Shown: in pieces, positions 37,695-59,711 of the stretch
Layout: each line of letters begins with the position of its first letter
Position numbering within the stretch: the first letter of the stretch is position 1
Origin: Paraglaciecola arctica BSs20135
Lineage (GTDB): Bacteria; Pseudomonadota; Gammaproteobacteria; Enterobacterales; Alteromonadaceae
Assembly (NCBI RefSeq): GCF_000314995.1
Contig: NZ_BAEO01000021.1
Location: forward strand, 1-64,000
Reading direction: 5' to 3'
DNA: 64,000 nt
The notes under the pieces: model-generated
Database searches by the model: none
What the model was told of the DNA's origin: nothing
Seen by the model: the letters and a program-made list of their open reading frames with translations, nothing else
Made by a program: the position numbers and the translations under genes

Positions 37695-38435
37695 TTATTT
37701 ATTTAAACTTAAAAAATGTTTCGTATTTTGACCCAGGATCTCAGTGACAATTTTATATGCGCTATCTGCTTTACCGCTAGCAATTGCCCAAGCTAATTCT
37801 TGGTGGTGCTCTAAATCTAATTCAATTTCTTCATTAGTTTGCTCTTGACCTAATCTCACATGCGCTTTTAGGTAAGTGGAAACTGCTGTTTTGAATTGAC
37901 TTAATATAGGATTGTGAGATGCCATCAGAATGAGGGAATGAAATAAAATGTCTGCTTCTAATCGTTTATCGTGATTATCTTTATTCACTTTCATTTGCTC
38001 GAATGCGCTCATTATATTGGCAATATCTTCTCTGGTTGCTCTTTCTGCTGCCAATCTTGCTGCTTCAGGTTCGATTATTCGCCTTACCTCTATTAAATCC
38101 ACCATAAAGGCTTCGGTCGCAATATCTGGATCTGCATGCCAGCCTAAGACCTGTTGATCTAACATATTCCATTGTGTACGAGGTGCAACTTTGGTTCCGC
38201 TTCGAGGACTTGTTGTTAAAAATCCTATTGCAGACAGTATTTTTACTGCTTCACGTAATGCATTACGTCCAACACCCAACATTGCGGATAATTCTGCTTC
38301 TATAGGTAATGTCTCACCTTCTTTATATTCATTAGCAGAAATTTTCTTACCTAATGTTTCAACAACATGTTTGGCTTGGCCTCTTGGTATTGGGAGCCCT
38401 GTGGTTTTTACATTCCCTTTCACATGATCCGTCAT
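37695..38435 (-). CDS. FadR-type GntR regulator with FCD domain
   Basis: A 246-residue regulator: winged HTH (EAELSAMLGVGRNALREAVKI, about residues 46-66, continuing SPRSGTKVAP) and an all-alpha FCD domain (about 95-235) containing the metal-type positions of this group. Of the sugar-acid/organic-acid FadR subfamily (UxuR, DgoR, LldR relatives). Divergent from the oxidoreductase operon; the 281-bp gap holds two exact and one degenerate TNRTGGGATTA motif, and the same motif occurs in front of the SDR, permease/gluconokinase and TonB-receptor genes 10-19 kb away. It is therefore the best candidate for the regulator of the whole right half of the window. The ligand is unknown. Confidence 0.88.
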   Translation of the reverse strand: MTDHVKGNVKTTGLPIPRGQAKHVVETLGKKISANEYKEGETLPIEAELSAMLGVGRNALREAVKILSAIGFLTTSPRSGTKVAPRTQWNMLDQQVLGWHADPDIATEAFMVDLIEVRRIIEPEAARLAAERATREDIANIMSAFEQMKVNKDNHDKRLEADILFHSLILMASHNPILSQFKTAVSTYLKAHVRLGQEQTNEEIELDLEHHQELAWAIASGKADSAYKIVTEILGQNTKHFLSLNK

Positions 38436-38521
38436 TTTTTACTTCTTTTTCTTAGTCACTAATGATCACATTGTAACTAACTATATGTTTTGTGTCATTA
38501 ACATTGAAAAATAATCATTAT

Positions 38522-38532
38522 TGGTGGGATTA
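38522..38532 (+). promoter_or_regulatory. FadR-type operator, copy 1
   Basis: TGGTGGGATTA, exact match to the repeated motif TNRTGGGATTA (compare the subfamily format TNGTNNNACNA), in the gap between the GntR gene and the oxidoreductase operon. Confidence 0.6.
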
Positions 38533-38615
38533 ATTGGGGTTTTATTTTATGTGTTCATACTATAACTACTGTTTTGATTAGGTTTATTTAATTATTAATT
38601 TATACCGTTGACCAT

Positions 38616-38626
38616 TAATGGGATTA
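38616..38626 (+). promoter_or_regulatory. FadR-type operator, copy 2
   Basis: TAATGGGATTA, a perfect palindrome around GGG, 91 bp before the oxidoreductase ATG. A degenerate copy AGGTGGGGTTA follows at 38650-38660. Confidence 0.62.
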
Positions 38627-38716
38627 TTGATAATATCTTTAAATCTTATAGGTGGGGTTAATTGATTGCTTTGTAGCTCTAACCTCATTAACAATTATTG
38701 AAGAAGGGTTGCAAGT

Positions 38717-40300: not shown

Positions 40301-40332
40301 CAGACAATTGGCAAATTTTGAGGAATGAAATA

Positions 40333-41490
40333 ATGGCTAGAAAAAAAGTAGAACCTTATACGGCATTGATAATACAGCCAGAAGTAACAGTCGTTGATGA
40401 TAGAGCCGGGATTCAAATCAACCTAGATAGGATTAAAAACCTTATTCATTTTGGCGTTGGATATCACTGGGAAATACCAGTAAAACTGGTGATTTTACCT
40501 GAATACTTTATGCAAGGCGTAGGTACTCCAGGTAAAGGCGAAACTAAAATTAAAGACGCAATGAAAAGAGCCGTAACAATTCCTGGGCCTGAAATTGATC
40601 AACTAGGTGAAATTGCCAAAGAATATGGTTTGTATATTTGTGGTGGTGGCGTGGTAGAGGAAGTCAAAGAATTTCCTGGCCGTTGGTTCAACACTAACTT
40701 TATTGTTGGTCCTTGTGGCAACGTGGTACTTAAGTATCACAAATGGCATATCAATGCATCATTAGGGCTTGGTACAAGTCCACATGATATGTTTGATGAA
40801 TATTGTGAGCACTTTGGCGGTAGTATTAAAGATCTATTTCCTGTTATTGATACTGAAATTGGGAAATTAGGCACCATGACTTGTCATGATGGTTGTACAC
40901 CTGAAGTAAGTCGTGCATTAGGTTATAACGGTGCAGAAGTTATTTGTCATCCGGGTGCAATACAAGAATTTGAAGGTGTTTCAGAGCCATGGGATTTTTG
41001 GAAGTTTACTCGTCGTACTCGTGCACATGACAATATGTGTTACCTATTTGGAGCTAACTGGGGCAGTGTAAATTATGAATACTACCCTAAAGCTTTTTGC
41101 CCTGGTCATTCCTTTGGTATTGATTATAAAGGCGTAATGATGGCTGAAGCACCATATCCAAGTGAACAGGTTCTAGCTGTGACGGTCGATATTGAAGCGT
41201 TGCGTCATTACCGTACTAAGATCAACCACAATAATTGGATTGATGTTCGAACAGAAGGCTTCAGGGAAATGTATACCAATCCCATTTATCCAGCGAATCG
41301 TTTTCCATCTGGAAAGCCGCCTACAGCACTTGTAGAAAAAATTACTGTTTGTAAAGAAGTATTCGATGACTTGTATGCAAGAGGCCAATTCACACCTCCA
41401 TTTGGCTATGAACCGGAAGATATCTCAGAATTATTACAATCCCGAATTGACTATGCTCAGGAAACAGGTCGATTAAAGAAGAGTAAATAA
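40333..41490 (+). CDS. Nitrilase-superfamily C-N hydrolase
   Basis: A 385-residue carbon-nitrogen hydrolase. The Glu-Lys-Cys triad is visible: Glu in ILPEYFMQG, Lys in KYHKWHI and Cys in GTMTCHDGCTPEVSRAL. Length and the extended C-terminus suggest an aliphatic amidase/formamidase-like branch rather than a true nitrilase. The ATG at 40333 follows GAGGAATG; an upstream frame start at 40318 lacks a site. It lies 32 bp after the oxidoreductase gene and just before a small membrane protein gene. Probably releases ammonia from an amide produced in this pathway; the substrate is unknown. Confidence 0.82.
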   Translation: MARKKVEPYTALIIQPEVTVVDDRAGIQINLDRIKNLIHFGVGYHWEIPVKLVILPEYFMQGVGTPGKGETKIKDAMKRAVTIPGPEIDQLGEIAKEYGLYICGGGVVEEVKEFPGRWFNTNFIVGPCGNVVLKYHKWHINASLGLGTSPHDMFDEYCEHFGGSIKDLFPVIDTEIGKLGTMTCHDGCTPEVSRALGYNGAEVICHPGAIQEFEGVSEPWDFWKFTRRTRAHDNMCYLFGANWGSVNYEYYPKAFCPGHSFGIDYKGVMMAEAPYPSEQVLAVTVDIEALRHYRTKINHNNWIDVRTEGFREMYTNPIYPANRFPSGKPPTALVEKITVCKEVFDDLYARGQFTPPFGYEPEDISELLQSRIDYAQETGRLKKSK

Positions 41491-43495: not shown

Positions 43496-44581
43496 ATGAC
43501 TAATCCAGTACCAAACTCCTCAATACTACGAATTAATGCCTATAAACAGGGTAAAAGTAATATCGATGGTATTAAAAATCCAATTAAGCTCTCGTCAAAT
43601 GAATCTTCCCATGGTGCATGTGAAGAAGCTTTATCTGCATTCAGGGAAACTTCATTTTCATTGAATCGTTACCCCGATGGAAATCAAACTAGCCTCAGAG
43701 AAGCAATTGCTCAAACCTTTAATCTAAACGAAAGTAAGATTATGTGTGGTAACGGATCAGAAGAATTAATTCAATTGGTTGTACGAGCATATGTGTCAGT
43801 AGGTGATGAAGCACTACTTAGTGAAAATGGCTTTATTATGAGCAATATTCATTGCCTAGCTCAAGGAGCTGAACTAGTCATTGCTCCAGAGAAAAACTTT
43901 AAGGTTGATGTCGACGCATTGTTAGCGCGAGTTACAGATAAAACGAAATTCTGTACTATTGCTAACCCAAACAACCCCACAGGTACCTATATTTCAGATG
44001 AAGAAATACGTAGATTACATGCTGGCCTTCCTAAAGATTGCATATTCTTAATAGACAATGCTTATTCAGAATATGTTGATAAAGAAGACTTTAGTGATGG
44101 GGTCGATTTAGTTGAAGAATTTGATAATGTCGTCATGACTCGGACGTTTTCGAAAATATATGGGTTATCGGCACTAAGAATCGGTTGGATGTACAGTTCT
44201 CAAGAAATACATGATCTAATTCAACGTATTAGAACACCGTTTAATGCAAATTCTCCAGCGATGGCAGCGGCAACAGCAGCAGTTAAACAGACTGGTTATG
44301 TAAACGATATTAAGCAACATAATATAAAATCATTGCAATATATTACTGATAAATTGCAACAGTTAGGTATTGAAGTTGTACCCAGTGTTGCAAATTTTTA
44401 CCTGTTAAATTTTAAAGGTGTCGAAGGAAAAATGGCTTCTGAAGCAGGCGCATTTCTGCAATCCAAAGGCATTATTCCTCGTCCTGCAGGAAATAATGAT
44501 GACTTCTTGCGAATTACCGTTGGTTTTGAAAGTGAAAACCAGGCAGTTGTTGATGCATTAACTGAATACATGAATCAATAA
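43496..44581 (+). CDS. HisC-like class I/II aminotransferase
   Basis: A 361-residue PLP enzyme of the histidinol-phosphate aminotransferase type (fold I). Clear landmarks: KLSSNES near the start (31-37), ANPNNPTGT (156-164), DNAYSEY (187-193), and the PLP lysine Lys220 in TRTFSKIYGLSALRIGW with Arg228. No other histidine genes are present, so it is a paralogue used in catabolism; HisC-like enzymes often act on aromatic amino acids or related amines. It follows the ThDP enzyme by 94 bp containing a hairpin, and precedes the aldehyde dehydrogenase. Confidence 0.85.
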   Translation: MTNPVPNSSILRINAYKQGKSNIDGIKNPIKLSSNESSHGACEEALSAFRETSFSLNRYPDGNQTSLREAIAQTFNLNESKIMCGNGSEELIQLVVRAYVSVGDEALLSENGFIMSNIHCLAQGAELVIAPEKNFKVDVDALLARVTDKTKFCTIANPNNPTGTYISDEEIRRLHAGLPKDCIFLIDNAYSEYVDKEDFSDGVDLVEEFDNVVMTRTFSKIYGLSALRIGWMYSSQEIHDLIQRIRTPFNANSPAMAAATAAVKQTGYVNDIKQHNIKSLQYITDKLQQLGIEVVPSVANFYLLNFKGVEGKMASEAGAFLQSKGIIPRPAGNNDDFLRITVGFESENQAVVDALTEYMNQ

Positions 44582-44634: not shown

Positions 44635-46143
44635 TTGAATAATCAGGTTGATGAGATAAATAGCGCACAATTCAATAAAGTTAAGTCGCGTCTTGAAACA
44701 ACACAAAAATTATTAATTAGTGGTAGTTGGCAGTGTTCATCTGATCAGCAAAATTCAGAAGTTATTGACCCTTCCACCGGTAACGTAATCTCTCATGCTA
44801 GTGTGGCAACTTATGATGACGTAAATCTTGCTGTATCTGCAGCTAGAGAATCATTTGAAAGTGGTGTCTGGACTAAAATGACACCTAGTCAACGGGGTAA
44901 AATACTTTGGAAAGTAGCCGACTTATTAGAAGAGTATGGTGATGAAGTTGCGACCTTAGAAATGTTGAACGCGGGTAAGAAATTTTCAGCGGCGCGACAA
45001 GGCGAAATACCATTTGCTGCAGATTGTTTTCGCTACTTCGCAGGTTGGTGCACAAAAGTTGAAGGAGCAACTAAAAGTTTATCTATTATACCAGGGCAAG
45101 ACTTTCACGCTTATACCAAAAGAGAACCAATAGGTGTAGCCGCACTGATTGTTCCATGGAATGGACCATTGGTACAAGCTGTTTGGAAAATCGCACCGGC
45201 ACTTGCTGCAGGTTGTAGTTGTATCATTAAGCCTGCTATGGAAACCCCATTATCAATGGTTCGCTTGGCTGAAATAATGTTAGAAGCGGGGGTTCCCCCT
45301 GGTGTTCTAAATGTGATTTTAGGCGGAGGGGAAACTGCCGGTAAATGGTTATCAGAGCACCCGGACGTAGATAAAATTTCATTTACTGGTTCAACTGGTG
45401 TGGGTAAAAAAATTCTTGATGCTGCTAAAGGAAATTTGAAAAAAGTTTCCTTAGAGCTAGGAGGCAAATCAGCGATGATTGTTTTTCCTGATGCTGATAT
45501 CGAAGAGGCAAGCCAAGGCGCTGTTGAGGCTATCTTCTCCCATGCAGGTCAAGTCTGCGTTGCTGGCTCTCGTCTGTTTATCCATCAAGATATATTTGAC
45601 GCGATGATTACAAAAATCAAAGAGAAGACATTAGCAATTAAAGTCGGATCTTGCCACGATGAAAGTACAGGGATGGGGCCTGTTATTTCACAACGTCAAT
45701 TTAACAGTATCCGTAAATATATTCATTTAGGGATAGAAGAGGGAGGGCGATTGATTACTGGTGGCGTGCCTGAATATAATGGCGATGGATACTTTATTTC
45801 ACCAACCATTTTTGTTGACGTTAAACCTGAGATGACAATTGTTAAAGAAGAAATTTTTGGTCCTGTATTAGTGGTCCAAACTTTTACTGATGAAAATGAC
45901 ATTAATCAGATGGCTAATGATTCAGAATATGGCTTGGCTGCTAGTATTTGGACAAAAGATGTGAGCAAAGCGCATCTTACGGCTTCAGCAATGCGCGCAG
46001 GTTTAGTGTGGGTTAATTGCCATGGTATCCCAGATATGTCAGTACCTTTTGGTGGTTACAAGCAGTCTGGTTGGGGACGTGAGAATGGGTATGAGGCGTT
46101 GCTTCAATATACTGAATTAAAATCGGTAGTCGTTAAATTATAA
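44635..46143 (+). CDS. Aldehyde dehydrogenase (NAD-dependent)
   Basis: A 502-residue ALDH-superfamily enzyme with the general base E274 (SLELGGKSA) and nucleophile C308 (HAGQVCVAG); the WNGPLVQAVWKIAPALAAG region and the C-terminal PFGGYKQSGWGRENG are typical of betaine-/phenylacetaldehyde-type dehydrogenases. The start is a TTG at 44635, 8 bases after AAGGGG; no better ATG is near. Last gene of the operon. It would oxidise the aldehyde made by the ThDP enzyme or oxidoreductase to a carboxylate. Confidence 0.88.
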   Translation: MNNQVDEINSAQFNKVKSRLETTQKLLISGSWQCSSDQQNSEVIDPSTGNVISHASVATYDDVNLAVSAARESFESGVWTKMTPSQRGKILWKVADLLEEYGDEVATLEMLNAGKKFSAARQGEIPFAADCFRYFAGWCTKVEGATKSLSIIPGQDFHAYTKREPIGVAALIVPWNGPLVQAVWKIAPALAAGCSCIIKPAMETPLSMVRLAEIMLEAGVPPGVLNVILGGGETAGKWLSEHPDVDKISFTGSTGVGKKILDAAKGNLKKVSLELGGKSAMIVFPDADIEEASQGAVEAIFSHAGQVCVAGSRLFIHQDIFDAMITKIKEKTLAIKVGSCHDESTGMGPVISQRQFNSIRKYIHLGIEEGGRLITGGVPEYNGDGYFISPTIFVDVKPEMTIVKEEIFGPVLVVQTFTDENDINQMANDSEYGLAASIWTKDVSKAHLTASAMRAGLVWVNCHGIPDMSVPFGGYKQSGWGRENGYEALLQYTELKSVVVKL

Positions 46144-46316: not shown

Positions 46317-47960
46317 TTAGTCTAACCCTATGTTGAGGGGCTTGCTCATTTCTAGTTCTATCCATTTATTAAATTCAATTTCATTCTTTAGCTCGGGCTT
46401 ATCTTTAGTTTTAGAGACCATATCTCGAAATACTTTAGAAAACATATAAGCTGAAATTTCATTGGGGTGATCTATTCCTCGTGTAACAGGGTAGGAATCA
46501 CGGTAGAAGGTTAAATCATCTATAGAGTTAATTATTAATTGATTATCGTAATCTCTTTTAAGTTGATATTTCTCTTCCTTAAGGATTACTGTGAATATTT
46601 GATCCGTAAAATCTTTGCCCATTTTGGGAAGATCAACTCCTTCTTTAAGTAAGGTTCTTACCCAATAAAACTCTGATGGTTGCTGAGGTTTTGGTACTAG
46701 CCATTCAGCTGAAGGGGCATCAGGGTTCGATACTTGATTTAACGTTATGTATTCGTCGGACTCAATAATGGCCTTCTGAAAATCCCAATGCTGAGTGTTT
46801 AACTGGACAAACTTTGATGGAAAACTTCGTTGTAGCGCATGCATTTGTTCATGAACTAGCAAGCCTCCAAATTCTCTCAATAGCTCCAAACTGTCTTTCT
46901 CATTTATATCCTTTTGCCAAATCTTAGTTAAAGAATCTAAATGCTTTTGGCTAAATATAATAAAACTGCCCCTTGTATGGGCAAAACCGCCACAAAGCCA
47001 GCTATCAACCTTGATAAATCGCCAAGGATGATTGGCCATTAAATGGATATTATTTTGAAGAAGCAATACATTCACCTCTTTAACAATATAGGTAAGCGCA
47101 TTTCGCTCTGTTTCACTAAAAGGAAGGACGGCATCCTGAAACCTTTTTCTAGCATAACGCCTTAAATCATTAATATCTGATGTTGTTAATTTTTCTTGTA
47201 TAAAGGTTTCAATTTCTCTTTTTTGTAGTTTTGAGAAGTAAGGCTCAAAGGTTTCGTCGAGGATTGCTTTTCTGGCGTCACTTACAGCCAGAATATCAAT
47301 TCTGGGCCTTACTAATGGGCTCTTTAGCTCTCTAATTTGATAATCATTTAAGCTATAAGTCGCTGGGGATCGTTCACTGTCATTCTGCTGTGTTTGGATG
47401 TTTGCTATATCATTCGAAACATTTTCGCCATTTACGGCATGCTTTAATCCTAAATTTTGAGCAACTTCATGGGTAATAACTAGGGCTTGCAAATGTTTTC
47501 GCTGCAATATGTCTGCTGTAGAGTCGGTAGTTTTTTTTGTTCCTAAGGCAATAAAAGTGTAACTTTCGTTCAGCATGCCATGAGCCACTGGTCCTTTTTT
47601 TCCCTGGAGTTCATTGACAAAAAACATATTAAGTATCTCGCCTTGGCCACGAATAAATCCATCCTCTGTAGCCATTTTGACTATTTTATCTAAGTCTATT
47701 ACTCCATCGCGCGCCTTGGTATTACTGTAAAAAATAGGTTCTAAAAAGTGTAGGTCCACATGTGCTTTTGAAAATGTCTCATCAATCAAATTTTTTGGTA
47801 GCGCCATTGAGGCTGGGTTATTGCCGTCGTCTCCTTGCACAACAATAGGCTGTATTATAATAACAAACGAATTTAGGGGCTCTTTTTGGGGGATAGAAAA
47901 TGCATAATTACTATGTAAAAAAAGAATAATTAATACAGCGACTGATTTAAAAAATTGCAT
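46317..47960 (-). CDS. Secreted protein with two zincin-like motifs
   Basis: A 547-residue protein with a signal peptide (hydrophobic core SVAVLIILFLHSNYAFS). Residues 164-174 read HEVAQNLGLKH, the metzincin signature HExxHxxGxxH with the second His replaced by Gln. Residues 370-374 read HEQMH, an intact HExxH, with acidic residues 25-35 positions on (E400, E403) where a gluzincin third ligand could lie. So it looks like a degenerate metzincin domain followed by a possibly active metallopeptidase domain. It stands alone on the minus strand, convergent with the aldehyde dehydrogenase. I cannot name a family; activity is inferred from motifs only. Confidence 0.65.
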   Translation of the reverse strand: MQFFKSVAVLIILFLHSNYAFSIPQKEPLNSFVIIIQPIVVQGDDGNNPASMALPKNLIDETFSKAHVDLHFLEPIFYSNTKARDGVIDLDKIVKMATEDGFIRGQGEILNMFFVNELQGKKGPVAHGMLNESYTFIALGTKKTTDSTADILQRKHLQALVITHEVAQNLGLKHAVNGENVSNDIANIQTQQNDSERSPATYSLNDYQIRELKSPLVRPRIDILAVSDARKAILDETFEPYFSKLQKREIETFIQEKLTTSDINDLRRYARKRFQDAVLPFSETERNALTYIVKEVNVLLLQNNIHLMANHPWRFIKVDSWLCGGFAHTRGSFIIFSQKHLDSLTKIWQKDINEKDSLELLREFGGLLVHEQMHALQRSFPSKFVQLNTQHWDFQKAIIESDEYITLNQVSNPDAPSAEWLVPKPQQPSEFYWVRTLLKEGVDLPKMGKDFTDQIFTVILKEEKYQLKRDYDNQLIINSIDDLTFYRDSYPVTRGIDHPNEISAYMFSKVFRDMVSKTKDKPELKNEIEFNKWIELEMSKPLNIGLD

Positions 47961-48056: not shown

Positions 48057-48368
48057 TTAACTCAAGGACAAAAGCTCTTTCACTCTGAGCTTGAGTTTTT
48101 GATTATAAATATCTCGTTCATTGTGGTTACAAAAGGCGCTTAAGAAACCTTCATGAGCATCACCTAATGCATTCGAAATTAATATGGTAAGTAACTCATA
48201 ATAGGGAATATTAAGAATTTCTGACAATGCGGTAAGTCGACAATGCTCTGCATTTTCTACTCTAAAATTACTGACCTGAGTAAGGGGAGGTTTTTGACAA
48301 ACCTCATCACAAAATAACGCGTTTTCCGTTAGTTCTTTAAATTTCAAAAAAGTATGTTTGTTTTTCAT
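48057..48368 (-). CDS. Hypothetical protein (103 aa)
   Basis: ATG at 48368 with GAGG nine bases upstream gives a 103-residue soluble protein; a longer frame to 48488 has no ribosome site. The C-terminal half (AEHCRLTALSEILNIPYYELLTILISNAL) is amphipathic helical and could be a small DNA-binding or dimerisation domain, while the N-terminal half has a CDEVC pair. It lies 96 bp before the zincin-like gene on the same strand and may share its transcript. No family recognised. Confidence 0.5.
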   Translation of the reverse strand: MKNKHTFLKFKELTENALFCDEVCQKPPLTQVSNFRVENAEHCRLTALSEILNIPYYELLTILISNALGDAHEGFLSAFCNHNERDIYNQKLKLRVKELLSLS

Positions 48369-48911: not shown

Positions 48912-49763
48912 ATGGCTTGTATTCTGATTACTGGTTGTGGTTCTGGTCTAGGTGCGTCATTGGCAACTAGATTGGCTAATGAAGGGCATGAAGTTATAGC
49001 TACCGTAAGATCGCTCACTCATGGAAAAATTCAAAATAGTATAGCCGCGACGTTCAATTCGCCGAAATTCATTCAAATGGATGTCACTAATACCAATGAA
49101 GTACAAACTGTTTTTGATGAATTCGAGAAACATGATAAAAAATTGGATGTTGTTATTCTAAATGCAGCAAGCTATTCGATGGGCACTATTGAAAGTACTA
49201 ATTACGAGCAAAGTAAACAGTGTTTTGACGTGAATTATTGGGGTGGGGTGAATGTTATTAGAGCTGTATTACCAATAATGCGTCGTCAGTTAAGTGGAAA
49301 GATTATAGGTATTGGCTCAATTTCTTCAGCTATTGCTTTACCTTGTGACGGATATTATTCCGCTTCTAAGGCAGCAATGGAGCGTACTCTAGAAAGTTTA
49401 AGGCATGAAGTAGCACCTTTCGGGCTCCATGTAAGTAACATAGCACCAGCCTCTTTTGGGTCTAACTTATTTCAATCACTACCGGATGAATTGCTAGAAA
49501 GTAATCCGTACTCGCCACTGTTAAAAGAGTGGCTAGCAAATATCAAACAAAATACTAATCCTAATGGGATAGGGAGAACAGAGGTTGAAGATATAATTTT
49601 GAGCGTTATCTCTTCGAATGAACCTGACTTTATCTATCCTGCAGGTGCTATGGCTTTAAAAGTTCTTAGTAGTTTGAAAACAATGACTGCCGAAGAAAGA
49701 ACTCATGCAATTTCAACCTGGTCGGATACGCAATGGTGGTCAAAGGCTAACTTTAAAGAATAA
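48912..49763 (+). CDS. Short-chain dehydrogenase/reductase
   Basis: A 283-residue classical SDR. The cofactor motif ILITGCGSGLGASLA (about residues 3-17) is followed by the NAG-type stretch VILNAAS and the active site Ser plus YYSASKAAME (Tyr-x-x-x-Lys). VRS after the second strand hints at NADP preference. The ATG at 48912 has AAGGAAAA upstream. It stands alone, convergent with the DUF819 permease gene. Two FadR-type operator motifs upstream tie it to the sugar-acid-like regulon; oxidation of a hydroxyacid or sugar is plausible. Confidence 0.87.
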   Translation: MACILITGCGSGLGASLATRLANEGHEVIATVRSLTHGKIQNSIAATFNSPKFIQMDVTNTNEVQTVFDEFEKHDKKLDVVILNAASYSMGTIESTNYEQSKQCFDVNYWGGVNVIRAVLPIMRRQLSGKIIGIGSISSAIALPCDGYYSASKAAMERTLESLRHEVAPFGLHVSNIAPASFGSNLFQSLPDELLESNPYSPLLKEWLANIKQNTNPNGIGRTEVEDIILSVISSNEPDFIYPAGAMALKVLSSLKTMTAEERTHAISTWSDTQWWSKANFKE

Positions 49764-51115: not shown

Positions 51116-51126
51116 TCATGGGATTA
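51116..51126 (+). promoter_or_regulatory. FadR-type operator, copy 5
   Basis: TCATGGGATTA, 109 bp upstream of the DUF819 start. A further 10-of-11 match TTGTGGGATTT is at 51289-51299, on the gluconokinase side. The whole gap 51008-51586 (579 bp) is very AT-rich; an in-frame hydrophobic stretch at 51452-51586 runs into gluconokinase but has no good start. Confidence 0.58.
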
Positions 51127-51586
51127 TATATCAATAATCTTGTTCTGTTATTATATGATTATTTTTTGATTTATATTTTCAACTTGTCTATTATTATTGC
51201 TAAGCATTTGTTTTTTATGATGTGTGCTATATTTTCGGGTTTGTTTTGTATGCAATTTATCTTATTGGCTTTAGCCTTTATTTTTTAATTGTGGGATTTA
51301 ATTTGCTTTTTTAGCCTGATTGGAAATTGTGAATGTTTTAATGATGGTCAATATTTTGGGTCAATAAAGTTAAATTTACATTGTGTAATATATTTTTGTT
51401 AGACATTTTATTTATTATTACAAGATACGTTGAAACAAGAATCTTGACTGTTTGTTTTTAGTCAAATTTGTTTTTTATCACCGTATTATCGGAAGAACAA
51501 TAATCAGTGTAGGCACACTACTTAACATATTAATCGGTGTTTTCGTTGCACCGTTTATTATCGGTTTGACTTTTAAGAGTAAAAAT

Positions 51587-52072
51587 ATGATTTATATCGT
51601 TATGGGGGTTAGTGGTTCAGGTAAATCGACAGTTGGGGATTTATTGTCTAAAGAATTGTCATTACCATTTTATGATGCAGATGATTTCCACTTTCCCGAA
51701 AGTATAGAAAAAATGGCGAAAGGTATTCCTTTAACAGATGACGATCGCAATCCATGGTTATCGCTATTAGCGATAAATATCGCTCAATGGGAAGCTAAGG
51801 GCGGAGCTGTTTTAGCCTGTTCAGCATTAAAAGAAAGTTATAGAGATATTTTACGTTCTACAACGGAAAATGTGGTGCAGTTTATTTATTTGAAAGGCAC
51901 ACAAGCGTTACTTGCGACACGGTTAAGAAGTAGAAGTTCACACTTTATGCCTGAATCCTTATTGGAAAGTCAGTTGAGTACATTAGAACCTCCTGAGCAA
52001 GCAATTACAGTGTTGTTAGATAATACCCTTGAGAACATTATTTTCGAAATTTTAAAGGAAATAAACCAATGA
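51587..52072 (+). CDS. gntK: Gluconokinase
   Basis: A 161-residue P-loop kinase of the GntK family, making 6-phosphogluconate (or the phosphate of a related aldonate). The Walker A motif GVSGSGKST (7-15) sits at the N-terminus; DADDFHFPESIEKMAKGIPLTDDDRNPWL is the characteristic substrate loop (I quote the family landmark DADDFH and DDDRNPWL), followed by ACSALK. Slightly shorter than E. coli GntK (175). The ATG at 51587 has AAGAG upstream. Its stop overlaps the larA start, so the two are translated together, a strong hint that they work on the same compound. Confidence 0.9.
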   Translation: MIYIVMGVSGSGKSTVGDLLSKELSLPFYDADDFHFPESIEKMAKGIPLTDDDRNPWLSLLAINIAQWEAKGGAVLACSALKESYRDILRSTTENVVQFIYLKGTQALLATRLRSRSSHFMPESLLESQLSTLEPPEQAITVLLDNTLENIIFEILKEINQ

Positions 52073-53355
52073 CTTATCCTATCCACTATGTTGACATTGA
52101 GAATACAATTTCAGATGGTGATTTAACGCGCATTATCGATGAGTTTATTGCTCACAAAGCAATTAATGCTAAAAAGATTCTGATTTTACCTCCAGACATT
52201 ACCCGTTTCTATTCGAAAGCCGGTTTCATTTCGACTTATCTTTATAAACAGTTGAAAGAACAAGCTGATATTTTCTTTTTACCAGCTCTAGGTACGCACG
52301 AGCCAATGTCTATTGCTGAAATTGAAACGATGTTTGGCACTGAAATACCAAAAGAAAGGTTTCTTCCTCATTTTTGGCGTACCGATGTTGAAGTCCTTGG
52401 TGAGATAACAAGTGAAAGGATAGCCGAGTTATCAGAAAATAAATTAAATTGCACTATGGAAATAGCCGTCAATAAATTGATATTAGATAAGTCATGGGAT
52501 TTGATTATTTCCGTAGGGCAAATAGTACCTCATGAGGTCATTGGTATGGCTAATTACACTAAAAATGTACTGGTTGGGGTAGGCGGTGCAGATACTATTC
52601 ATAAATCTCATTATTTAGGGGCGGTCTATGGCATGGAGCGTATTATGGGCCGTACTTATACACCCGTAAGACAAGCCTTAAATGAAGGGTTTGATCAATT
52701 CTTACGCCATTTACCAATTGAGTTTATTTTAACGGTTCTTGGTAAAAAGGACGATAGGTTGGCGCTGCAAGGTGTTTATTGTGGTAACCAAAATGAGACT
52801 TATGAAGCAGCTTGCCAGTTGAGTCAGCAATTAAATTTAAACTTATTAACAAAACCCATTAAGAAAGCTATTGTCTTTTTGGAGCCTGCAGAATTTAAAA
52901 CCACCTGGCTGGGTAATAAAGCTATCTATCGTACCCGTATGGCTATGGCTGATGATGGAGAACTGATTATCCTAGCACCAGGGTTACATCGCTTTGGAGA
53001 AGATCTGGCTATAGATCAGTTAATTCGTACCTTCGGCTATAAAACTACCGATGAAACTTTAGTTGCCGTTGAAAATAATCCTGATTTAGCGAAAAACTTA
53101 TCAGCTGCAGCTCATTTAATTCATGGAACAACTAATGATCGTTTCAAGGTGACTTATTGTCCTGGTGATGGTTTAACTCAAGAGGAGGTTGAATCAGTAA
53201 ACTATCAATATTGCCACTTTGACGAGATGGTCAAACGCTACCCCCCAGACAAACTAAAAAATGGTTGGAATACATTAGCAAACGGTGAGGAAGTTTTTTA
53301 TGTCAGTAATCCAGCTTTGGGTTTATGGGCAACGGAAAAAAACTTTAATAACTAA
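52069..53355 (+). CDS. larA: LarA-family nickel-dependent 2-hydroxyacid racemase/epimerase
   Basis: A 428-residue DUF2088 protein. Cofactor-binding residues line up with Lactobacillus LarA: His77 (LGTHEPM), His155 (VPHEV), Lys165 (NYTKN, the attachment lysine) and His178/His181 (IHKSHYLG, nickel ligand). The family interconverts 2-hydroxyacid stereoisomers by hydride transfer with a nickel-pincer nucleotide. Members outside lactate racemase act on malate, other hydroxyacids or D-gluconate. It overlaps gluconokinase by four bases and precedes all three cofactor genes. A gluconate/mannonate 2-epimerase role is therefore my preferred inference; lactate is less likely given the absence of lactate genes. 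Confidence 0.85.
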   Translation: MTYPIHYVDIENTISDGDLTRIIDEFIAHKAINAKKILILPPDITRFYSKAGFISTYLYKQLKEQADIFFLPALGTHEPMSIAEIETMFGTEIPKERFLPHFWRTDVEVLGEITSERIAELSENKLNCTMEIAVNKLILDKSWDLIISVGQIVPHEVIGMANYTKNVLVGVGGADTIHKSHYLGAVYGMERIMGRTYTPVRQALNEGFDQFLRHLPIEFILTVLGKKDDRLALQGVYCGNQNETYEAACQLSQQLNLNLLTKPIKKAIVFLEPAEFKTTWLGNKAIYRTRMAMADDGELIILAPGLHRFGEDLAIDQLIRTFGYKTTDETLVAVENNPDLAKNLSAAAHLIHGTTNDRFKVTYCPGDGLTQEEVESVNYQYCHFDEMVKRYPPDKLKNGWNTLANGEEVFYVSNPALGLWATEKNFNN

Positions 53356-53406
53356 TGATGCCATGTAATTTAAGTGGAACTGCGGTAAGAATTTATGGAA
53401 GTAACA

Positions 53407-54696
53407 ATGGATAATTCACATATACATTTGGATATTGTCGGAGGGATTGCTGGCGATATGTTTATTAGTGCTTTGTTGGATGCATTTGAACCGCTTCAGT
53501 TTGAGGTGCTTTCGAATATTAAGCAGGTAATTCCAGAGAGTATTGGTATAGCTGTTTTATCAAATGGCTTAAACTCGGGTATTAGCGGCCTTAACTTCAG
53601 TCTGAAGCTTAACAGTGCAGACTGTAAGTCTGAACAGCATAAACCTGATGATGATCATAGGCCCTCTGACAATCATGGACATCAGCATAGTCACGGGCAT
53701 AAGCATCATAAACATTCCAATGAAACGACTTATAAATATTTATGCGAACTATTAAGAAGCAGTAGCCTAAAAGCCGAGGTGACTGAAATAGCGTTGGCCT
53801 TATTGACTATTATTGGTAAGGCCGAGGCAAAAATTCATAATAAAACCCTAGATGATGTTCACTTTCATGAGTTAGCAGATTGGGATTCTTTAATGGATGT
53901 AGTAGCTGTTGCTGTTATTCTTAATGGCTTATCAAAATGTACCTGGAGTTGCTCTAAACTACCTTTAGGTAGTGGGTTGGCCGAGACTCAACATGGCCTT
54001 ATCCCCGTACCTGCACCAGCAACTGCGGAAATATTACTCGGCTTCGAGTTTTTCGACGACAATATTAAAGGCGAACGTATTACGCCAACTGGTGCTGCAA
54101 TACTCCACTATTTACGGAAAACCGGTTTAATGACTATGCTGCCTCAAGGGCACTTAGTGGCTACGGGTTATGGCTTAGGGACTAAAGTGTTTCCAGGCAT
54201 GCCAAATATTTTACGAGCATTACATTTTAGCAAAAGTATCGCAGAAAATTCGCTGCAAGATAAACAACCAGATACGGTAGTTGTTATTGAGTTCGATATT
54301 GATGATATGACCGGTGAAGAGCTTGCATTATCTCTCGATATATTGAGAGCGCAACAAGGTGTTATTGATGTTGTCGTGCTATCAGTACGTGGCAAAAAAA
54401 ATCGTTCAGTAGAGTGCATTCGTGTGTTGGCATCATGCGCATCTTATCAGAATGTTATAGATACCTGTTTCAACCAAACCAGTACTATTGGTTTGCGATA
54501 CCGATTTGAAACAAGGCAACATCTACACCGTGATAATTACCAAGTTCAAGGCCTTGCATGTAAAAGTGTGACTCGTCCTAATGGGGATGTAACCTGTAAA
54601 ATAGAACATGATGAGCTTAGCTCTTTAGAAACCTTGAACCAACGTAGAAGGTTGAAATACCAAATAGAAGTATTAAGTGAAGGTAGTACTTCATGA
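53407..54696 (+). CDS. larC: Nickel insertion protein LarC
   Basis: A 429-residue cyclometallase that inserts nickel into the pincer mononucleotide using CTP. It begins HIHLDIVGGIAGDMFISALLDA, the family start, and contains the DVHFHELADWDSL active region (about 155). A His-rich linker around residues 81-102 (several HGH/HKHH clusters) probably binds nickel. The protein is unbroken here, unlike species where larC is split by a programmed frameshift. The ATG at 53407 with GGAAG five bases before it is chosen over an in-frame ATG at 53395. Its stop overlaps the larE start. Confidence 0.92.
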   Translation: MDNSHIHLDIVGGIAGDMFISALLDAFEPLQFEVLSNIKQVIPESIGIAVLSNGLNSGISGLNFSLKLNSADCKSEQHKPDDDHRPSDNHGHQHSHGHKHHKHSNETTYKYLCELLRSSSLKAEVTEIALALLTIIGKAEAKIHNKTLDDVHFHELADWDSLMDVVAVAVILNGLSKCTWSCSKLPLGSGLAETQHGLIPVPAPATAEILLGFEFFDDNIKGERITPTGAAILHYLRKTGLMTMLPQGHLVATGYGLGTKVFPGMPNILRALHFSKSIAENSLQDKQPDTVVVIEFDIDDMTGEELALSLDILRAQQGVIDVVVLSVRGKKNRSVECIRVLASCASYQNVIDTCFNQTSTIGLRYRFETRQHLHRDNYQVQGLACKSVTRPNGDVTCKIEHDELSSLETLNQRRRLKYQIEVLSEGSTS

Positions 54697-55505
54697 TGAA
54701 TGAAAAAGTAGCTGAATTGATTGTTTTCTTTAATCAGTTTGAAGAGTTTTGTATAGCCGTCAGTGGTGGTATAGATAGTATGCTACTCGCGTACATTGCT
54801 AATCGATTTTCTAGCGCTGAAGTAAAAATTGTGCATGCATTCTCTCCGGCAGTACCGCAAGCAGCTTTAGATAGAGTGAAAGCACATGCACAAGCTTACC
54901 AATGGGATCTTGAAGTGATTGACGCCAACGAATTTGATGACGTCAATTATATAAATAACCCGGTGAATCGTTGTTATTTTTGCAAAAGTAACTTGTATAC
55001 GCGGGTCGCAGAACATGGCAATGGAATCATTTTCTCTGGTACTAATGTTGATGATTTAGGCGATGTTAGACCGGGTTTAACCGCAGCTACTGAACAAAAC
55101 GTTTTGCACCCTTACGTTGAAGTTGGCATTAATAAAAAAGAGATTTATGAGATTGCGGCATTTTACGGCTTAACAGAATTGTCTGCTTTACCCTCACAGC
55201 CTTGCTTAGCAAGTAGAGTCGAGACTGGAATTAAAATTAAGCCTGATGACATGAAGTTTATAGATAGTGTTGAAGAAAAAGTACGTCACTTTTTACCAAC
55301 TTTCAAAAATATTAGGTGCAGAATTTCTCAACAAGGTATTTTTGTTGAGTTAGACAGAATGCCCGAAAAAGTCCCCTTAGAGCTTTTATCTTATAACTTG
55401 AGCGAATATTGTGCCAATCAAGGCCGAATATTTTCAGGTATGAAAGTTTATCAAAAAGGTTCAGCGTTTCTTAATGGACTAAACCATGGAGCAACGAATG
55501 GATAA
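54693..55505 (+). CDS. larE: Sulfur transferase LarE
   Basis: A 270-residue PP-loop enzyme that adenylates and thiolates the dicarboxylated pyridine precursor. The PP-loop AVSGGIDSMLL is at residues 22-32, RCYFCK (Cys94, Cys97) follows, and PCLASRVETG carries Cys171, which corresponds to the sulfur-donating cysteine of the Lactobacillus enzyme. It overlaps larC by four bases and larB by eight, so the set is translationally coupled. Confidence 0.92.
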   Translation: MMNEKVAELIVFFNQFEEFCIAVSGGIDSMLLAYIANRFSSAEVKIVHAFSPAVPQAALDRVKAHAQAYQWDLEVIDANEFDDVNYINNPVNRCYFCKSNLYTRVAEHGNGIIFSGTNVDDLGDVRPGLTAATEQNVLHPYVEVGINKKEIYEIAAFYGLTELSALPSQPCLASRVETGIKIKPDDMKFIDSVEEKVRHFLPTFKNIRCRISQQGIFVELDRMPEKVPLELLSYNLSEYCANQGRIFSGMKVYQKGSAFLNGLNHGATNG

Positions 55506-56154
55506 CTTTATTTGGGACAAAGATAGGAAGGCAAGAACTGGCATTGCGGAAGCTGTGTTTTGTTTGCATAAAAGCGCACAAGATCTTCATCCCATCATCC
55601 GTTTTAATATTGAGAATTCTACTCCCGTACTGTTAACACGATTATCGCAACAACAATGGCTTGCCTTGCCATTAGAGCTGCAAAATGCGCTTGATTATGA
55701 TGAGTGTTCAGAAACGGCGATAATTAATGGTTCGCAAAAATTATCCACTAAAAATGATGTTTGTATTGTAAGCGCTGGGACTTCTGATCAGGCGGTCGCC
55801 ATGGAAGCTAAACGCACCTTAGCATTTAATGGATACCAAGCTCCAATATTTGCAGATCTGGGGGTCGCAGGGCTTTGGCGGTTGATGGAAAAAATAGATG
55901 AACTTCGTCAATACAAGATCATTATCGCGTTAGCAGGAATGGAGGGAGCACTCTTTAGTGTCTTAGCAGGCCTTGTTAGGGCACCTATAATCGCCGTACC
56001 TATATCAGTAGGTTATGGTGTTTCAGCAGGGGGAAATACAGCATTAGGTAGTGCATTAGCTTCCTGCTCTCCGGGAATATTGACTGTAAATATTGATAAT
56101 GGTTTTGGTGCAGCCAATGCTGCAATAAAAATTTTAAACCAATTTAGTGAGTAA
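55498..56154 (+). CDS. larB: Pyridinium-3,5-biscarboxylate mononucleotide synthase LarB
   Basis: A 218-residue protein that carboxylates nicotinic acid adenine dinucleotide, the first step of pincer-cofactor synthesis. The C-terminal half is the PurE/AIR-carboxylase-like domain (VCIVSAGTSDQAVAMEAKRT, later VPISVGYGVSAGGNTALGSAL). The ATG at 55498 has GGAG six bases upstream; an in-frame ATG at 55486 is an alternative. It overlaps larE and precedes the nickel permease by five bases. Confidence 0.92.
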   Translation: MDNFIWDKDRKARTGIAEAVFCLHKSAQDLHPIIRFNIENSTPVLLTRLSQQQWLALPLELQNALDYDECSETAIINGSQKLSTKNDVCIVSAGTSDQAVAMEAKRTLAFNGYQAPIFADLGVAGLWRLMEKIDELRQYKIIIALAGMEGALFSVLAGLVRAPIIAVPISVGYGVSAGGNTALGSALASCSPGILTVNIDNGFGAANAAIKILNQFSE

Positions 56155-56159
56155 TAAAA

Positions 56160-56792
56160 ATGATTGATGGAGATTTTTTAGCGGCAGTCTTAACCGGAAT
56201 AATGTTTGGTATTATCCACGCTTTTGACGTAGACCATATAGTCGCTATGGCAACTTTTTCGGAACAAAAAAACAAAAATAAGCAAATATTAACTTACGCT
56301 TTTAAATGGGGGACTGGTCACGGAGGTATTTTATTATTGTTAGGTATGTTACTGATTTTTATTGGTTTTCAGCTACCTAATTGGTTTGTTCATTATTCTG
56401 AAATAATGGTGGGAGTTTTGCTCATCTATTTGGGGGTAAAATTATTAGTATTGCTACATCGGAAAGGTACCTTTAGTGTACCTGAATCATTAGATCTAGC
56501 CGCCAGATCTTTAAATAAACATGACCACACACCCTTATTCATTGGCATGTTGCATGGTGTTGCAGGAAGTGCTCCCTTACTGGCATTGCTTCCCAATATG
56601 CTAGAAACCCAATTTTTGTTGCACATTAGCTTATTTTCGATAGGTTGTTTGTTTGGCATGTTTTGCTTCGGCTATATTTTTGGTTCATATCAAGTCTATA
56701 TAAAGCAAAAGAAAGAGAAGCTTGCTAAGGCATTTACGCAATTGTTGGGTATTGGATCAATAGGATTAGGTGCATATTGGGTCTTCAGTTAA
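56160..56792 (+). CDS. Nickel/cobalt permease-like membrane protein
   Basis: A 210-residue polytopic protein with about six membrane segments. The first carries HAFDVDHI, the HX4DH signature of NiCoT-type nickel/cobalt permeases, followed by GTGHGG in the next helix. It is shorter than NixA/HoxN (about 330) and nearer the UreH-like compact forms. Last gene of the gntK-larA-larC-larE-larB operon, five bases after larB, so it most likely brings in the nickel needed for the cofactor. Confidence 0.85.
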   Translation: MIDGDFLAAVLTGIMFGIIHAFDVDHIVAMATFSEQKNKNKQILTYAFKWGTGHGGILLLLGMLLIFIGFQLPNWFVHYSEIMVGVLLIYLGVKLLVLLHRKGTFSVPESLDLAARSLNKHDHTPLFIGMLHGVAGSAPLLALLPNMLETQFLLHISLFSIGCLFGMFCFGYIFGSYQVYIKQKKEKLAKAFTQLLGIGSIGLGAYWVFS

Positions 56793-57118
56793 TTACATAA
56801 ATAAGCAAGTTTGTATTTTGTATTGTTTGCTAGATCTTGGATCCACCATCGCCGCAGTGTTTTAGTCGCTTCCTTGTAGTGGCAAACAATATTTTCTGTT
56901 CAAGTGCCGCTACTCACGAAACGTCATAGCCAACAAATCCCTGTGTTGCTCTATTATGGTTTCCTATTCTTGGGCGCTGCGCCTTGCCATTATCAATTCT
57001 GATAGATTTCTAAGTTGACACTGTGCTCTGCTAAATCAAATATATAGAGCAGGAAGTTCATCGGACGATACATTCCTTCCTTAATTATCGAACAAAAAAA
57101 AGCATATTAAATTTCATT

Positions 57119-57129
57119 TAGTGGGATTA
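57119..57129 (+). promoter_or_regulatory. FadR-type operator, copy 6
   Basis: TAGTGGGATTA, exact match to TNRTGGGATTA, in the leader region of the TonB receptor gene, with near matches at 57181 and 57245. Confidence 0.55.
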
Positions 57130-57277
57130 AGAAAGATATTTAAATTTTTATTTTATACTAAAAATTAGTTTTTCATTAGTTAACCCCATTTATATAGGCC
57201 GTTTTGGAGGTTTTTTCTTCGTAAACTCATTGTTTTATCTTATTTAAAGGGATTAAATATTTCTTGCAATTGATTAT

Positions 57278-57288
57278 TGGTGGGATTA
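57278..57288 (+). promoter_or_regulatory. FadR-type operator, copy 7
   Basis: TGGTGGGATTA, 89 bp before the TonB receptor ATG, in a context (ATTGGTGGGATTAAATTGG) nearly the same as that of copy 1 at 38522. Confidence 0.62.
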
Positions 57289-57377
57289 AATTGGTTTCAT
57301 TCTATACTGGTACAAAAATCAAGCGTCTTAATTGAGATTAACAAAAGATAAAAAACCAACATTTGGGGAATACTAAA

Positions 57378-59711
57378 ATGAGAATGAATAATTTTGTAAT
57401 AAAACCTTTAGCAGCCGCGATTGCCTTGTCAATTTCAGTCGACGTAGCTATAGCTGCCGAATCCAATGAAGTGCAGGGAGCTGCAATGGAAAAAAAGGTC
57501 GAGAGTAAGAATCTTGAGCTTGAAACTATTGTTGTAACTTCACAACGTCGAGTGCAGACATTACAGGAGGTTCCGATCAGTGTTACTGCTTTTTCTTCTG
57601 AAGCTTTGGAAAAAGGCGGTATTGTTGAAGCTCGGGATTATTTGTCTCAAACCCCAAACGTATCATTTAGTGAGGATGGAGGCGCAGGAAGTCGAAGTGT
57701 AAATATAAGTGTGCGTGGGGTAAGTAATGTTGGTTTAGGTGAGGTAGTTACTGCGAATTCTATTGGGTTTTACATCGATGAGTTAAATGTAGGGAGTGTG
57801 TCTACAGGAACCATTAACCCTCAATTGCAGGATATGCAACGTATTGAAGTTTTGAGGGGACCACAAGGGACATATTTTGGACGTAACTCATTGGGTGGGG
57901 CACTCAACATCAGTACCAAATTACCCGATGAAGAATTATACGGAGAGGTTTCTGTCAACGCAGCAAGTTTTGGTACTTTAGGTGGTGAAGGTATTTTTAA
58001 CCTACCTATATCCGATAAATTAATGATGCGCGCTGTGTATTCGTATAATGAATCGGATGGTGAAGTTGAAAATATAAACCCTGACGGATCTGATCTTGGA
58101 TATGAACACACAAGCGGCCGTATAGCGCTAAGAGCACTACCAACTGATGAATTGACCATTGACCTGTCGGTAACTTATACAAATGAAGATGAAGGTGGAG
58201 ATATAACAGTACCCACGGGAGTTATTAATTTAGATAGTCAAAGTATTTTTGGTTCTGATTTTAAGGCAATTGATGAGTTACCCTCTTACCCTCAAAATGA
58301 TAGTAAGGTAAACCGTAATTTAGTTGAATTAAATGATAATGAGTTTTCGATTGTAAATTTAAGAGTCGCCTATGATTTTGATGGTTTTGAATTCAAATCT
58401 ATCACAGGCCTTATTGATAGTTCGACTAGTCGAGCATTTGATCTAGATAGTACTAGTGTCGACGCTCTACGACGCTTTAATGAATATGAAGCGACCTCCT
58501 TTAGTCAAGAGCTACGTTTGCAAAGCACCGCTGTTCAAGAGTTTGATTGGACGGTAGGCCTGTTTTATGCTGAAGACGATATCGAGCAATTTAACTCAAT
58601 TCAAGCGGGAGCTGATACTTCTTATACAAATCCGAATACTGGAGAAGTCATTGGGCTATTACCTCCAATTCCAGCTGGATTTCGAATTAATGAAAACAAT
58701 CGAGTGTTTAAGACCGAAAGTATCGCGTTATTTGGTGAAACCGTTTGGCATATGAATGAGCAATGGGATCTCACTTTGGGGGCTCGTTATACTCAAGATG
58801 ACGTTAAAAACGAAGCCTTTGATCGTTTTGCTTTTGAATCTCCAGTACTCGATAGTAAAGGTGATGTATCGTTCAATGATTTTTCACCTAAGGTTGTGGT
58901 GAAATATACGGCTAGTGACGACTTAAATATCTATGCATCTGTTTCTCAAGGTTATAAGTCTGGTGGTATAGACTTTTCTAATGATGGTAGCGAAGCTAGC
59001 AATTTTAAACCAGAGGAGTTATCCAGTTACGAAATTGGCTTCAAATCAAGCTTGCTTGATAGCCGCGTAAACCTGTCAGCGGCGCTGTTTTATTTAGATT
59101 GGACTAATTTACAAGTGCAATCTAATTTTTTAAGGGTCCCTGGTGATATTAGTTCAGCAGTAGAAAAAACCCTTAACGCAGCTGAAGTTTCAGCTACTGG
59201 TGTTGAGTTTGAATTAACGGCGTTACTTTCCGAAGGTTTAATCGCTAGTTTTAGCGGTGGTTATTTAAATTCAGAATTTGATAGTTTTGATAATGCAATA
59301 ATCAAAGGAACTACTACTCCAGTTAGTTTGAGTGGTGAGTCTTTACCCAATACTCCTGAGCTAACCTTAAGTGGCTCTTTAGATTATACATACCCTGTTG
59401 GTGATTCTGGTATGGAAGGGTTCGTACGTGCAGAGTGGAACTATCGCGATGAATCAGCAAGTAACTTAGAAGCCGTTGCTTCAAATGCCGGTTTGTTAGA
59501 TTTACCTGCATTTCCTTATCAGATTGATTCATACAATGTAGTTAATCTTCGTGTCGGATTGAGAAATGATAACTTTCGGATCAATGCTTATGTCGAAAAT
59601 CTTTTTGACGAACAATATTATACCGGTACTGGAGATGGTTTTGGTTTGTCAGGCATACGTGTGAAACCACATAGCACTGTGCTTGGTGTCAAATTCACCT
59701 ATATGATGTAA
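57378..59711 (+). CDS. TonB-dependent outer-membrane receptor
   Basis: A 777-residue receptor: signal peptide (PLAAAIALSISVDVAIAA), TonB-box region LETIVVTSQRRVQTLQEVP, plug (GVSNVGLGE, IEVLRGPQGTYFGRNSLGG) and a barrel ending in a Met/Tyr-rich strand (VLGVKFTYMM). Of the subgroup common in marine Alteromonadales and sphingomonads that takes up organic compounds rather than siderophores. The ATG at 57378 has GGGGAA upstream. Four FadR-type motifs in its leader point to co-regulation with the oxidoreductase and lar operons, so it is probably their outer-membrane importer. Confidence 0.9.
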   Translation: MRMNNFVIKPLAAAIALSISVDVAIAAESNEVQGAAMEKKVESKNLELETIVVTSQRRVQTLQEVPISVTAFSSEALEKGGIVEARDYLSQTPNVSFSEDGGAGSRSVNISVRGVSNVGLGEVVTANSIGFYIDELNVGSVSTGTINPQLQDMQRIEVLRGPQGTYFGRNSLGGALNISTKLPDEELYGEVSVNAASFGTLGGEGIFNLPISDKLMMRAVYSYNESDGEVENINPDGSDLGYEHTSGRIALRALPTDELTIDLSVTYTNEDEGGDITVPTGVINLDSQSIFGSDFKAIDELPSYPQNDSKVNRNLVELNDNEFSIVNLRVAYDFDGFEFKSITGLIDSSTSRAFDLDSTSVDALRRFNEYEATSFSQELRLQSTAVQEFDWTVGLFYAEDDIEQFNSIQAGADTSYTNPNTGEVIGLLPPIPAGFRINENNRVFKTESIALFGETVWHMNEQWDLTLGARYTQDDVKNEAFDRFAFESPVLDSKGDVSFNDFSPKVVVKYTASDDLNIYASVSQGYKSGGIDFSNDGSEASNFKPEELSSYEIGFKSSLLDSRVNLSAALFYLDWTNLQVQSNFLRVPGDISSAVEKTLNAAEVSATGVEFELTALLSEGLIASFSGGYLNSEFDSFDNAIIKGTTTPVSLSGESLPNTPELTLSGSLDYTYPVGDSGMEGFVRAEWNYRDESASNLEAVASNAGLLDLPAFPYQIDSYNVVNLRVGLRNDNFRINAYVENLFDEQYYTGTGDGFGLSGIRVKPHSTVLGVKFTYMM

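Follow-up and report, generated by a model that had tools for sequence, protein, structure and literature searches.

A predicted GntR operator repeated across a local, sugar-acid-type island of Paraglaciecola arctica BSs20135

Motif copies and genes of the island

We analyzed a window of 64,000 nucleotides of Paraglaciecola arctica BSs20135 (contig NZ_BAEO01000021.1), in which the 11-bp motif TNRTGGGATTA recurs in the promoter gaps of an island of about 20 kb that also carries a gene for a GntR regulator. Nine exact copies were found in the window against 0.37 expected by chance (an earlier reading of the sequence, here called the original prediction, had put the expectation at about 0.25), and none of 100 dinucleotide shuffles of the window reached nine. 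Seven of the nine lie in four gaps of the island: between gntR and the oxidoreductase gene, between the gene for a 143-aa protein (hyp143) and that for a short-chain dehydrogenase (SDR), between DUF819 and gntK, and before a TonB-dependent receptor. The original prediction had placed these seven correctly, strands included, and all are intergenic as it had claimed; two copies that it did not list, at 2372 and 33099, are located within long open reading frames (ORFs; 2105-3529 and 31784-34297). One-mismatch copies numbered 20 in the window against 10.6 expected, and since they are common by chance, near copies are singly weak evidence. Those proposed earlier at 51289 and 57245 do have one mismatch, whereas those at 38650 and 57181 have at least two. 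The sites, ranked by a matrix built from 49 distinct sites of relatives only, and the promoter-like element around one of them are as follows.

38522-38532, plus strand: operator copy TGGTGGGATTA, exact, rank 4
38608-38636, plus strand: promoter-like TTGACC-17-TAATAT, whose spacer holds the 38616 operator TAATGGGATTA (from sequence and comparison)
38616-38626, plus strand: operator copy TAATGGGATTA, exact, tied first
38650-38660, plus strand: weak near copy AGGTGGGGTTA, rank 21, background level
48562-48572, minus strand: operator copy TAATGGGATTA before the 143-aa gene, exact, tied first
48746-48756, plus strand: operator copy TGGTGGGATTA before the SDR gene, exact, rank 5
51116-51126, plus strand: operator copy TCATGGGATTA between DUF819 and gntK, exact, rank 3
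51289-51299, plus strand: weak near copy TTGTGGGATTT, one mismatch, rank 18
57119-57129, plus strand: operator copy TAGTGGGATTA, exact, rank 12
57181-57191, minus strand: weak near copy AAATGGGGTTA, rank 14
57245-57255, plus strand: near copy TAAAGGGATTA, one mismatch, rank 7
57278-57288, plus strand: operator copy TGGTGGGATTA, exact, rank 6

The genes of the island were assigned by family matches.

37695-38435, minus strand: FadR-subfamily GntR regulator (FCD domain), which we propose to read the motif; above the cut-offs of PF00392 and PF07729
38717-40300, plus strand: CrtO/CrtI-like FAD oxidoreductase, heading the operon; family matches, orthologues in relatives
40339-41490, plus strand: carbon-nitrogen hydrolase; PF00795
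41761-43401, plus strand: TPP-dependent enzyme; NF006122 over cut-off
43496-44581, plus strand: HisC-like aminotransferase; TIGR01141 just over cut-off
44635-46143, plus strand: aldehyde dehydrogenase; below family cut-offs
48057-48488, minus strand: 143-aa protein (hyp143) without family match, operator copy upstream
48912-49763, plus strand: SDR; PF00106
49874-51007, minus strand: DUF819 membrane protein, possible transporter; PF05684, neighbor in 15 of 18 GntR-bearing loci of relatives
51587-52072, plus strand: gluconokinase (gntK), start probably 51587; TIGR01313 over cut-off
52069-53355, plus strand: LarA homologue of group 18, putative hexonate epimerase; NF052594, 608 bits (cut-off 500)
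53395-56154, plus strand: LarC, LarE and LarB, nickel-pincer cofactor synthesis; over cut-off
56160-56792, plus strand: possible nickel transporter; weak match only
57378-59711, plus strand: TonB-dependent receptor; PF00593, PF07715
60074-61468, plus strand: sulfatase-like protein 3' of the receptor, below family cut-offs; no site of its own found

The regulator scored 54.3 bits for PF00392 (cut-off 27) and 85.7 bits for PF07729 (cut-off 24.3), which bears out the claim that a FadR-type GntR gene adjoins the first copies. The gluconokinase-lar region named by the original prediction is not simply a lactate racemase region, as the LarA homologue passes the NF052594 cut-off. The 143-aa protein has a 41% match beside the DUF819 gene in a relative (locus L082, 19641-19946).

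Co-occurrence of motif and regulator in relatives

Relatives were compared at loci with at least 67% oxidoreductase identity and sufficient upstream DNA. GntR orthologues, 52-62% identical to the window regulator, were present at 18 of these loci and absent from 13. Of the 18 GntR-bearing loci, 17 have the motif form TGGGATTA in the gap adjoining gntR, while no intergenic copy was found in the 13 loci that have the oxidoreductase without GntR (Fisher p = 7e-8); copies within ORFs were seen in three of the 13. The eighteenth locus (L112), which has the least similar regulator, carries TAGTAGGATTA before its TonB receptor and, as seen by eye, the AGG form TAGTAGGATAA in its regulator gap. With the loci collapsed by eye to 8 + 8 groups the comparison gave p = 0.0014; counting the AGG form of L112 lowers this to 1.6e-4. 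The pattern with a free center, TNRTNNNATTA, was absent from the 400 bp preceding the oxidoreductase at all 13 loci that lack GntR. Across nine representative regulator gaps the most-shared 10-mers were AATGGGATTA and AATCCCATTA, each present in eight of nine, and in 500 shuffles of these gaps the best shared 8-mer reached six of nine once. The matrix built from relatives only placed 48562, 38616, 51116, 38522, 48746, 57278 and 57245 at the top in the window. The adjacent FadR/FCD-type GntR protein is therefore very probably the reader of the motif, judged from sequence comparison. The regulon proposed by the original prediction is supported by this co-occurrence and by the matrix.

The loci came from a contig search with a two-sequence oxidoreductase alignment, of which the best 80 of 108 loci were kept; the first 42 were analyzed and the other 38 (L123-L160) were not. 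The oxidoreductase was used as query because a scan of the genome contigs with GntR alone found nothing. Three loci (L097, L098 and L103) were left out of the comparison for too little upstream DNA, with L097 and L098 holding two motif copies each, and L099 was left out since its contig stops before any regulator is visible, the motif pair being present. L110, L113-L116, L118 and L120 were left out for less than 60% identity or as partial. A hit was called coding if any ORF of more than 150 aa covered it. By this rule the copy in L102 is coding, though it lies within the gntR gap, and copies in L084-L088, L104 and L111 were called coding on account of an over-extended oxidoreductase start or an overlapping ORF. 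One locus without GntR (L095) has a single TGGGGTTA at 9986 just before the oxidoreductase, not counted as a hit.

In the window's family, a GntR match at E <= 1e-30 was found in 53 of 147 genomes, at 33-41% identity except for the own gene. The oxidoreductase at E <= 1e-100 was found in the window's own genome only (1/147). In a class sample of 369 genomes it was found in two at E <= 1e-120, the match outside the own genome being 70% identical, and the LarA homologue at E <= 1e-60 was again confined to the own genome (1/369). The island appears to have been acquired, or to have been lost widely.

The whole genome (5,964,456 bases in 72 contigs) contains 36 exact copies of TNRTGGGATTA versus 24 of the reversed pattern. 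Outside the island there are 29 copies: ORFs of at least 696 nt overlap 25 and a 303-nt ORF overlaps one, and no ORF of more than 153 nt covers the remaining three. Two copies of the first group (L004 and L006) lie at most 75 nt from the longest possible start and might precede the true one. Intergenic copies thus make up 7/7 in the island versus 4/29 elsewhere, counting the 303-nt ORF copy as intergenic (Fisher p = 4e-5). The remainder of the contig (64001-98214) is free of exact copies. Inspection of ORF starts by eye gave no evident link to the island for the copies at C61:35678, C63:186960 and C46:274614 or for the one in the 303-nt ORF. The distribution of the motif is background plus one local cluster, and the regulon is local, comprising one island of about 20 kb, not global. 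The original claim of one regulon over four promoter regions is supported for the seven copies in those gaps, at the scope of a local island. The original prediction had also named a motif equally common within genes as evidence against itself. Copies elsewhere are indeed mostly intragenic, which goes against it in letter and not in intent, because an 11-bp degenerate pattern is too uninformative for a scan of 6 Mb. For the same reason we rejected the genome-wide exact scan as a test of the regulon.

Operator form, polarity and closest known systems

The consensus of the relatives' operators is WWTNATGGGATTAWW. Two hits, at 40425 in the window (within the hydrolase gene) and at 266 in L082 (remote), were dropped before the consensus was made. 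Among the relatives' sites position 0 is T in 46/49, position 2 A in 47/49, position 4 G in 47/49 and position 7 A in 48/49, with A/T flanks; T3, G5, G6, T8, T9 and A10 were fixed by the search pattern, and their invariance is by construction. The gaps of the window and its 18 relatives hold 45 distinct copies of TNRTNNNATTA (64 listed matches less 19 palindromic ones listed on both strands), of which 36 have a GGG center on either strand, one AGG and eight another. The right box ATTA is likewise given by the pattern and is backed by the pattern-free 10-mer count. The FadR-type format TNGTNNNACNA named by the original prediction fits in part, the relatives having A/T where the subfamily has G/C.

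All 34 exact TGGGATTA copies in regulator gaps read away from gntR, although site positions are partly inherited and the polarity represents fewer than 34 independent events. By a looser pattern 36 of 36 point away from gntR. A reversed near copy, TAATGGGATGA in L081, is the exception in a regulator gap. Outside these gaps most copies are oriented with the downstream gene, with exceptions at 57181 (a near copy), L099 303, L122 4816 and L166 5736. The L122 copies at 4797 and 4816, which precede Eda, lie back to back, one on each strand, and an operator copy lies directly upstream of Eda in L082, L083 and L122.

The E. coli FadR protein contacts DNA through R35, T44, R45, T46 and H65 (Table 1 of PMC4494728). 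The Arg35 position is Ala in the window protein and Gln in 18 of 18 orthologues. R45 is kept in 19/19, T44 is replaced by G, T46 by N, and H65 by P (Q in one). According to PMC4494728, the FadR-subfamily consensus consists of TKGT/ACMA boxes, common but not universal, and an Arg at the R35 position is associated with G/C at positions 6/14 of the site, which lie in the boxes. The loss of Arg35 in the present proteins fits the loss of operator G. At position 2, the third box base, which adjoins the base named in that source, G was found in 5/9 window operators versus 2/49 sites of relatives (p = 5e-4), a contrast of one lineage with the rest.

The motifs of the FadR class (PMC4494728) share with the window-type operator four-base arms, a 3-base center and several sites in divergent regulator gaps; the window-type operator differs in having A/T for the conserved G/C and an asymmetric center. 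NanR and BioR are subfamily members whose motifs also depart from TKGT/ACMA, according to the same paper. The best solved-structure relative of the window regulator is DgoR, the E. coli D-galactonate repressor (7c7e, the printed sequence of which is consistent with DgoR of E. coli). Like the window protein it belongs to the GntR/FadR family and has Ala at the FadR R35 position; it is a local regulator of a sugar-acid operon, the role proposed for the window protein too. DgoR binds two inverted repeats that overlap its promoter (PMC12288454). Its repeat IR1 contains TTGTAGTACAA with canonical GT/AC boxes, whereas the boxes in the window are AT/AT around a mostly GGG center. The DgoR metal ligands D146, H150 and H195 align with D162, H166 and H211 of the window protein, and R102 with R118; R102, H150 and H195 are invariant in 18/18 orthologues, while the D146 position has D in 16 orthologues and N in the other two. 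Of the 11 D-galactonate pocket residues that define the DgoR orthologue group, four are kept and seven differ.

The 38616 operator falls between a -35-like and a -10-like box, and a TTGAC-type -35 with a TA-rich -10 was found around a site also in L081, L082, L083, L093, L096, L111 and L122; weaker arrangements of boxes were found around sites in L089, L091, L109 and L112. Such placement in the spacer suggests repression at the main promoter, as read from the sequence, and shows nothing for other promoters.

Proposed control and substrate of the island

Within the flanks available, the islands of the 18 relatives contain UxuA (4), ManD (3), KdgK-like (3) and Eda-like (4, one at 39%) genes. Representative UxuA, ManD and Eda proteins score above NCBIfam cut-offs; the KdgK-like kinases do not. 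In Pseudoteredinibacter isoporae a sulfatase-like gene remote from the main island, 28% identical to that of the window, has exact copies 33 and 195 bp upstream (sites 7715 and 7877; locus L164, G515:C1:1760000-1776000). The window LarA homologue matches the solved chain 4nar of GntE2 (LarAH20), the D-mannonate/D-gluconate epimerase of Thermotoga maritima. It differs in belonging to group 18 and in being encoded in an island that combines GntR, a TonB receptor and an operon of aminotransferase/decarboxylase type. According to PMC7583248, LarA groups 19 and 20 epimerize D-mannonate to D-gluconate, and a hexonate substrate of group 18 is only hypothesized. The joint presence of motif and regulator in related marine bacteria points to a shared programme for breakdown of a sugar-acid-yielding compound. 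From the gene content of the islands we infer that the regulon would serve D-mannonate/D-gluconate catabolism and that the effector would be a hexonate, most likely D-mannonate. The window's gluconokinase and LarA homologue of group 18, a putative hexonate epimerase with a nickel-pincer cofactor, would stand in for dehydratase and KDG kinase. The island substrate may release a hexonate and an amino-acid-like part. As parent compound of the oxidoreductase operon an amino-acid conjugate and a sulfated compound were considered, and the evidence was insufficient to commit to either.

We consider it likely that one explanation covers these observations: through the predicted operator, the GntR protein controls the divergent gap beside its own gene and the catabolic island around it. 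A repressor dimer in the 17-bp spacer would block RNA polymerase at the oxidoreductase promoter, and a metal-coordinated sugar acid, D-mannonate or a close hexonate, would release it from the operator. In this genome the hexonate would pass through the group-18 LarA homologue (C2 epimerization to D-gluconate) to gluconokinase, where islands of several relatives hold UxuA or ManD. Clustering, conservation, box placement and metal residues were computed; binding, repression and effector we infer from them. That the regulon is local, of sugar-acid type and of a known kind with a departing, polarized operator is well supported by the comparisons.

The same regulator and sites might instead serve activation or two-way action, with polarized copies setting the protein beside RNA polymerase. 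Fixed polarity is in our view seen more often in elements linked to activators or promoters than in the sites of dimeric repressors, and several copies lie 100-280 bp from a gene start; yet the copies at the main promoter overlap the core promoter, as do the sites of the repressor DgoR (PMC12288454), and we consider activation rather improbable. It is less probable still that another factor reads the motif, or that a promoter element moves with the operons and GntR is a mere neighbor. Such a reading could draw on binding being predicted only, on the misfit of center and boxes with the subfamily consensus, on the polarity and on a contig where one TGGGATTA precedes a TonB receptor and no GntR hit lies nearby. 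It is opposed by the lack of intergenic copies in all 13 loci with the operon gene but without GntR, by the copies within the gntR gap itself in 17 of 18 loci and by the AGG variant accompanying the least similar regulator. Chance words in AT-rich intergenic DNA could account for a genome-wide count near that of the reversed control (36 vs 24); the local excess, the conservation across genomes and the matrix ranking contradict this, and we give it almost no credence.

Several observations weigh against control by a GntR repressor responding to a hexonate. The 18 GntR-bearing loci are related, so that kinship inflates the counts, and the groups were drawn by eye without a tree. L108 was counted as negative, but just beyond the flank counted its contig (G266) has one TGGGATTA, 54 bp from a downstream TonB-receptor ORF and without a GntR hit in the vicinity. 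Exact versus reversed matches in the genomes of five relatives were 21/6, 17/19, 14/9, 4/5 and 8/4, giving no consistent excess. The operator (TNAT-GGG-ATTA in relatives) lacks TKGT/ACMA boxes and has A/T at the conserved G/C. Asn at the T46 position is reported (PMC4494728) to prefer A/T at central positions; it is kept here, yet the operator center has G. Only a minority of the distinct sites, 11/58, reach 8/12 box matches at the spacer offset, a count made without a shuffle control; among the offsets tried this one has the most sites at 8/12, but not the highest mean. The copies at 48746 and 57278 show no clear pair of -35/-10 boxes. As to the ligand, the DgoR pocket residues Q173, R179, W181, D184, T191, S221 and R224 differ in the window protein, and therefore the ligand may not be an aldonate. 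UxuA or ManD occurs in only 7/18 relatives' islands within the available DNA, and the 42 loci of relatives that were examined gave no match to gntK or lar. The own genome has UxuA elsewhere beside a separate GntR (L167, G000:C42:8000-22000), and because of this the LarA route is not forced; that stretch has no exact motif copy, and ManD in the own genome gave no match above 29%.

A more far-reaching proposal joins two claims: that a homodimeric GntR protein reads an asymmetric operator (TNATG/TAATC around GGG) in fixed polarity, and that the regulon identifies the substrate of a group-18 nickel-pincer epimerase as D-mannonate/D-gluconate, gluconokinase replacing mannonate dehydratase. We advance the two together only tentatively, thinking them somewhat more apt to fail than to hold.

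By title, no regulator study with TAATGGGATTA was found in a collection of open-access papers, a search that did not cover RegPrecise or subscription journals. A search there for TGGGATTA and GntR gave only titles on Lactobacillus genomics and Listeria biofilms, and any two of group 18, LarAH and hexonate gave PMC7583248 alone. Many genomes of marine gammaproteobacteria carry this catabolic island, and no substrate has been assigned to the enzymes of its operon; the present analysis proposes a regulator and its operator for it. The operator's break with the subfamily rule tracks the loss of the FadR Arg35 contact and can be used to test ideas on recognition, and its fixed polarity is not what one would expect where a dimer binds. 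The context of the regulon would also predict the activity of group-18 LarA homologues, for which hexonate is so far a hypothesis (PMC7583248).

Two further genes of the window were noted. The gene at 46317-47960 (minus strand) encodes a protein of 547 aa that has the zincin-like motif HEQMH and matches no Pfam or NCBIfam family. A second FCD-type GntR regulator is located at 14493-15236 (minus strand), beside methylcitrate-cycle-like genes.

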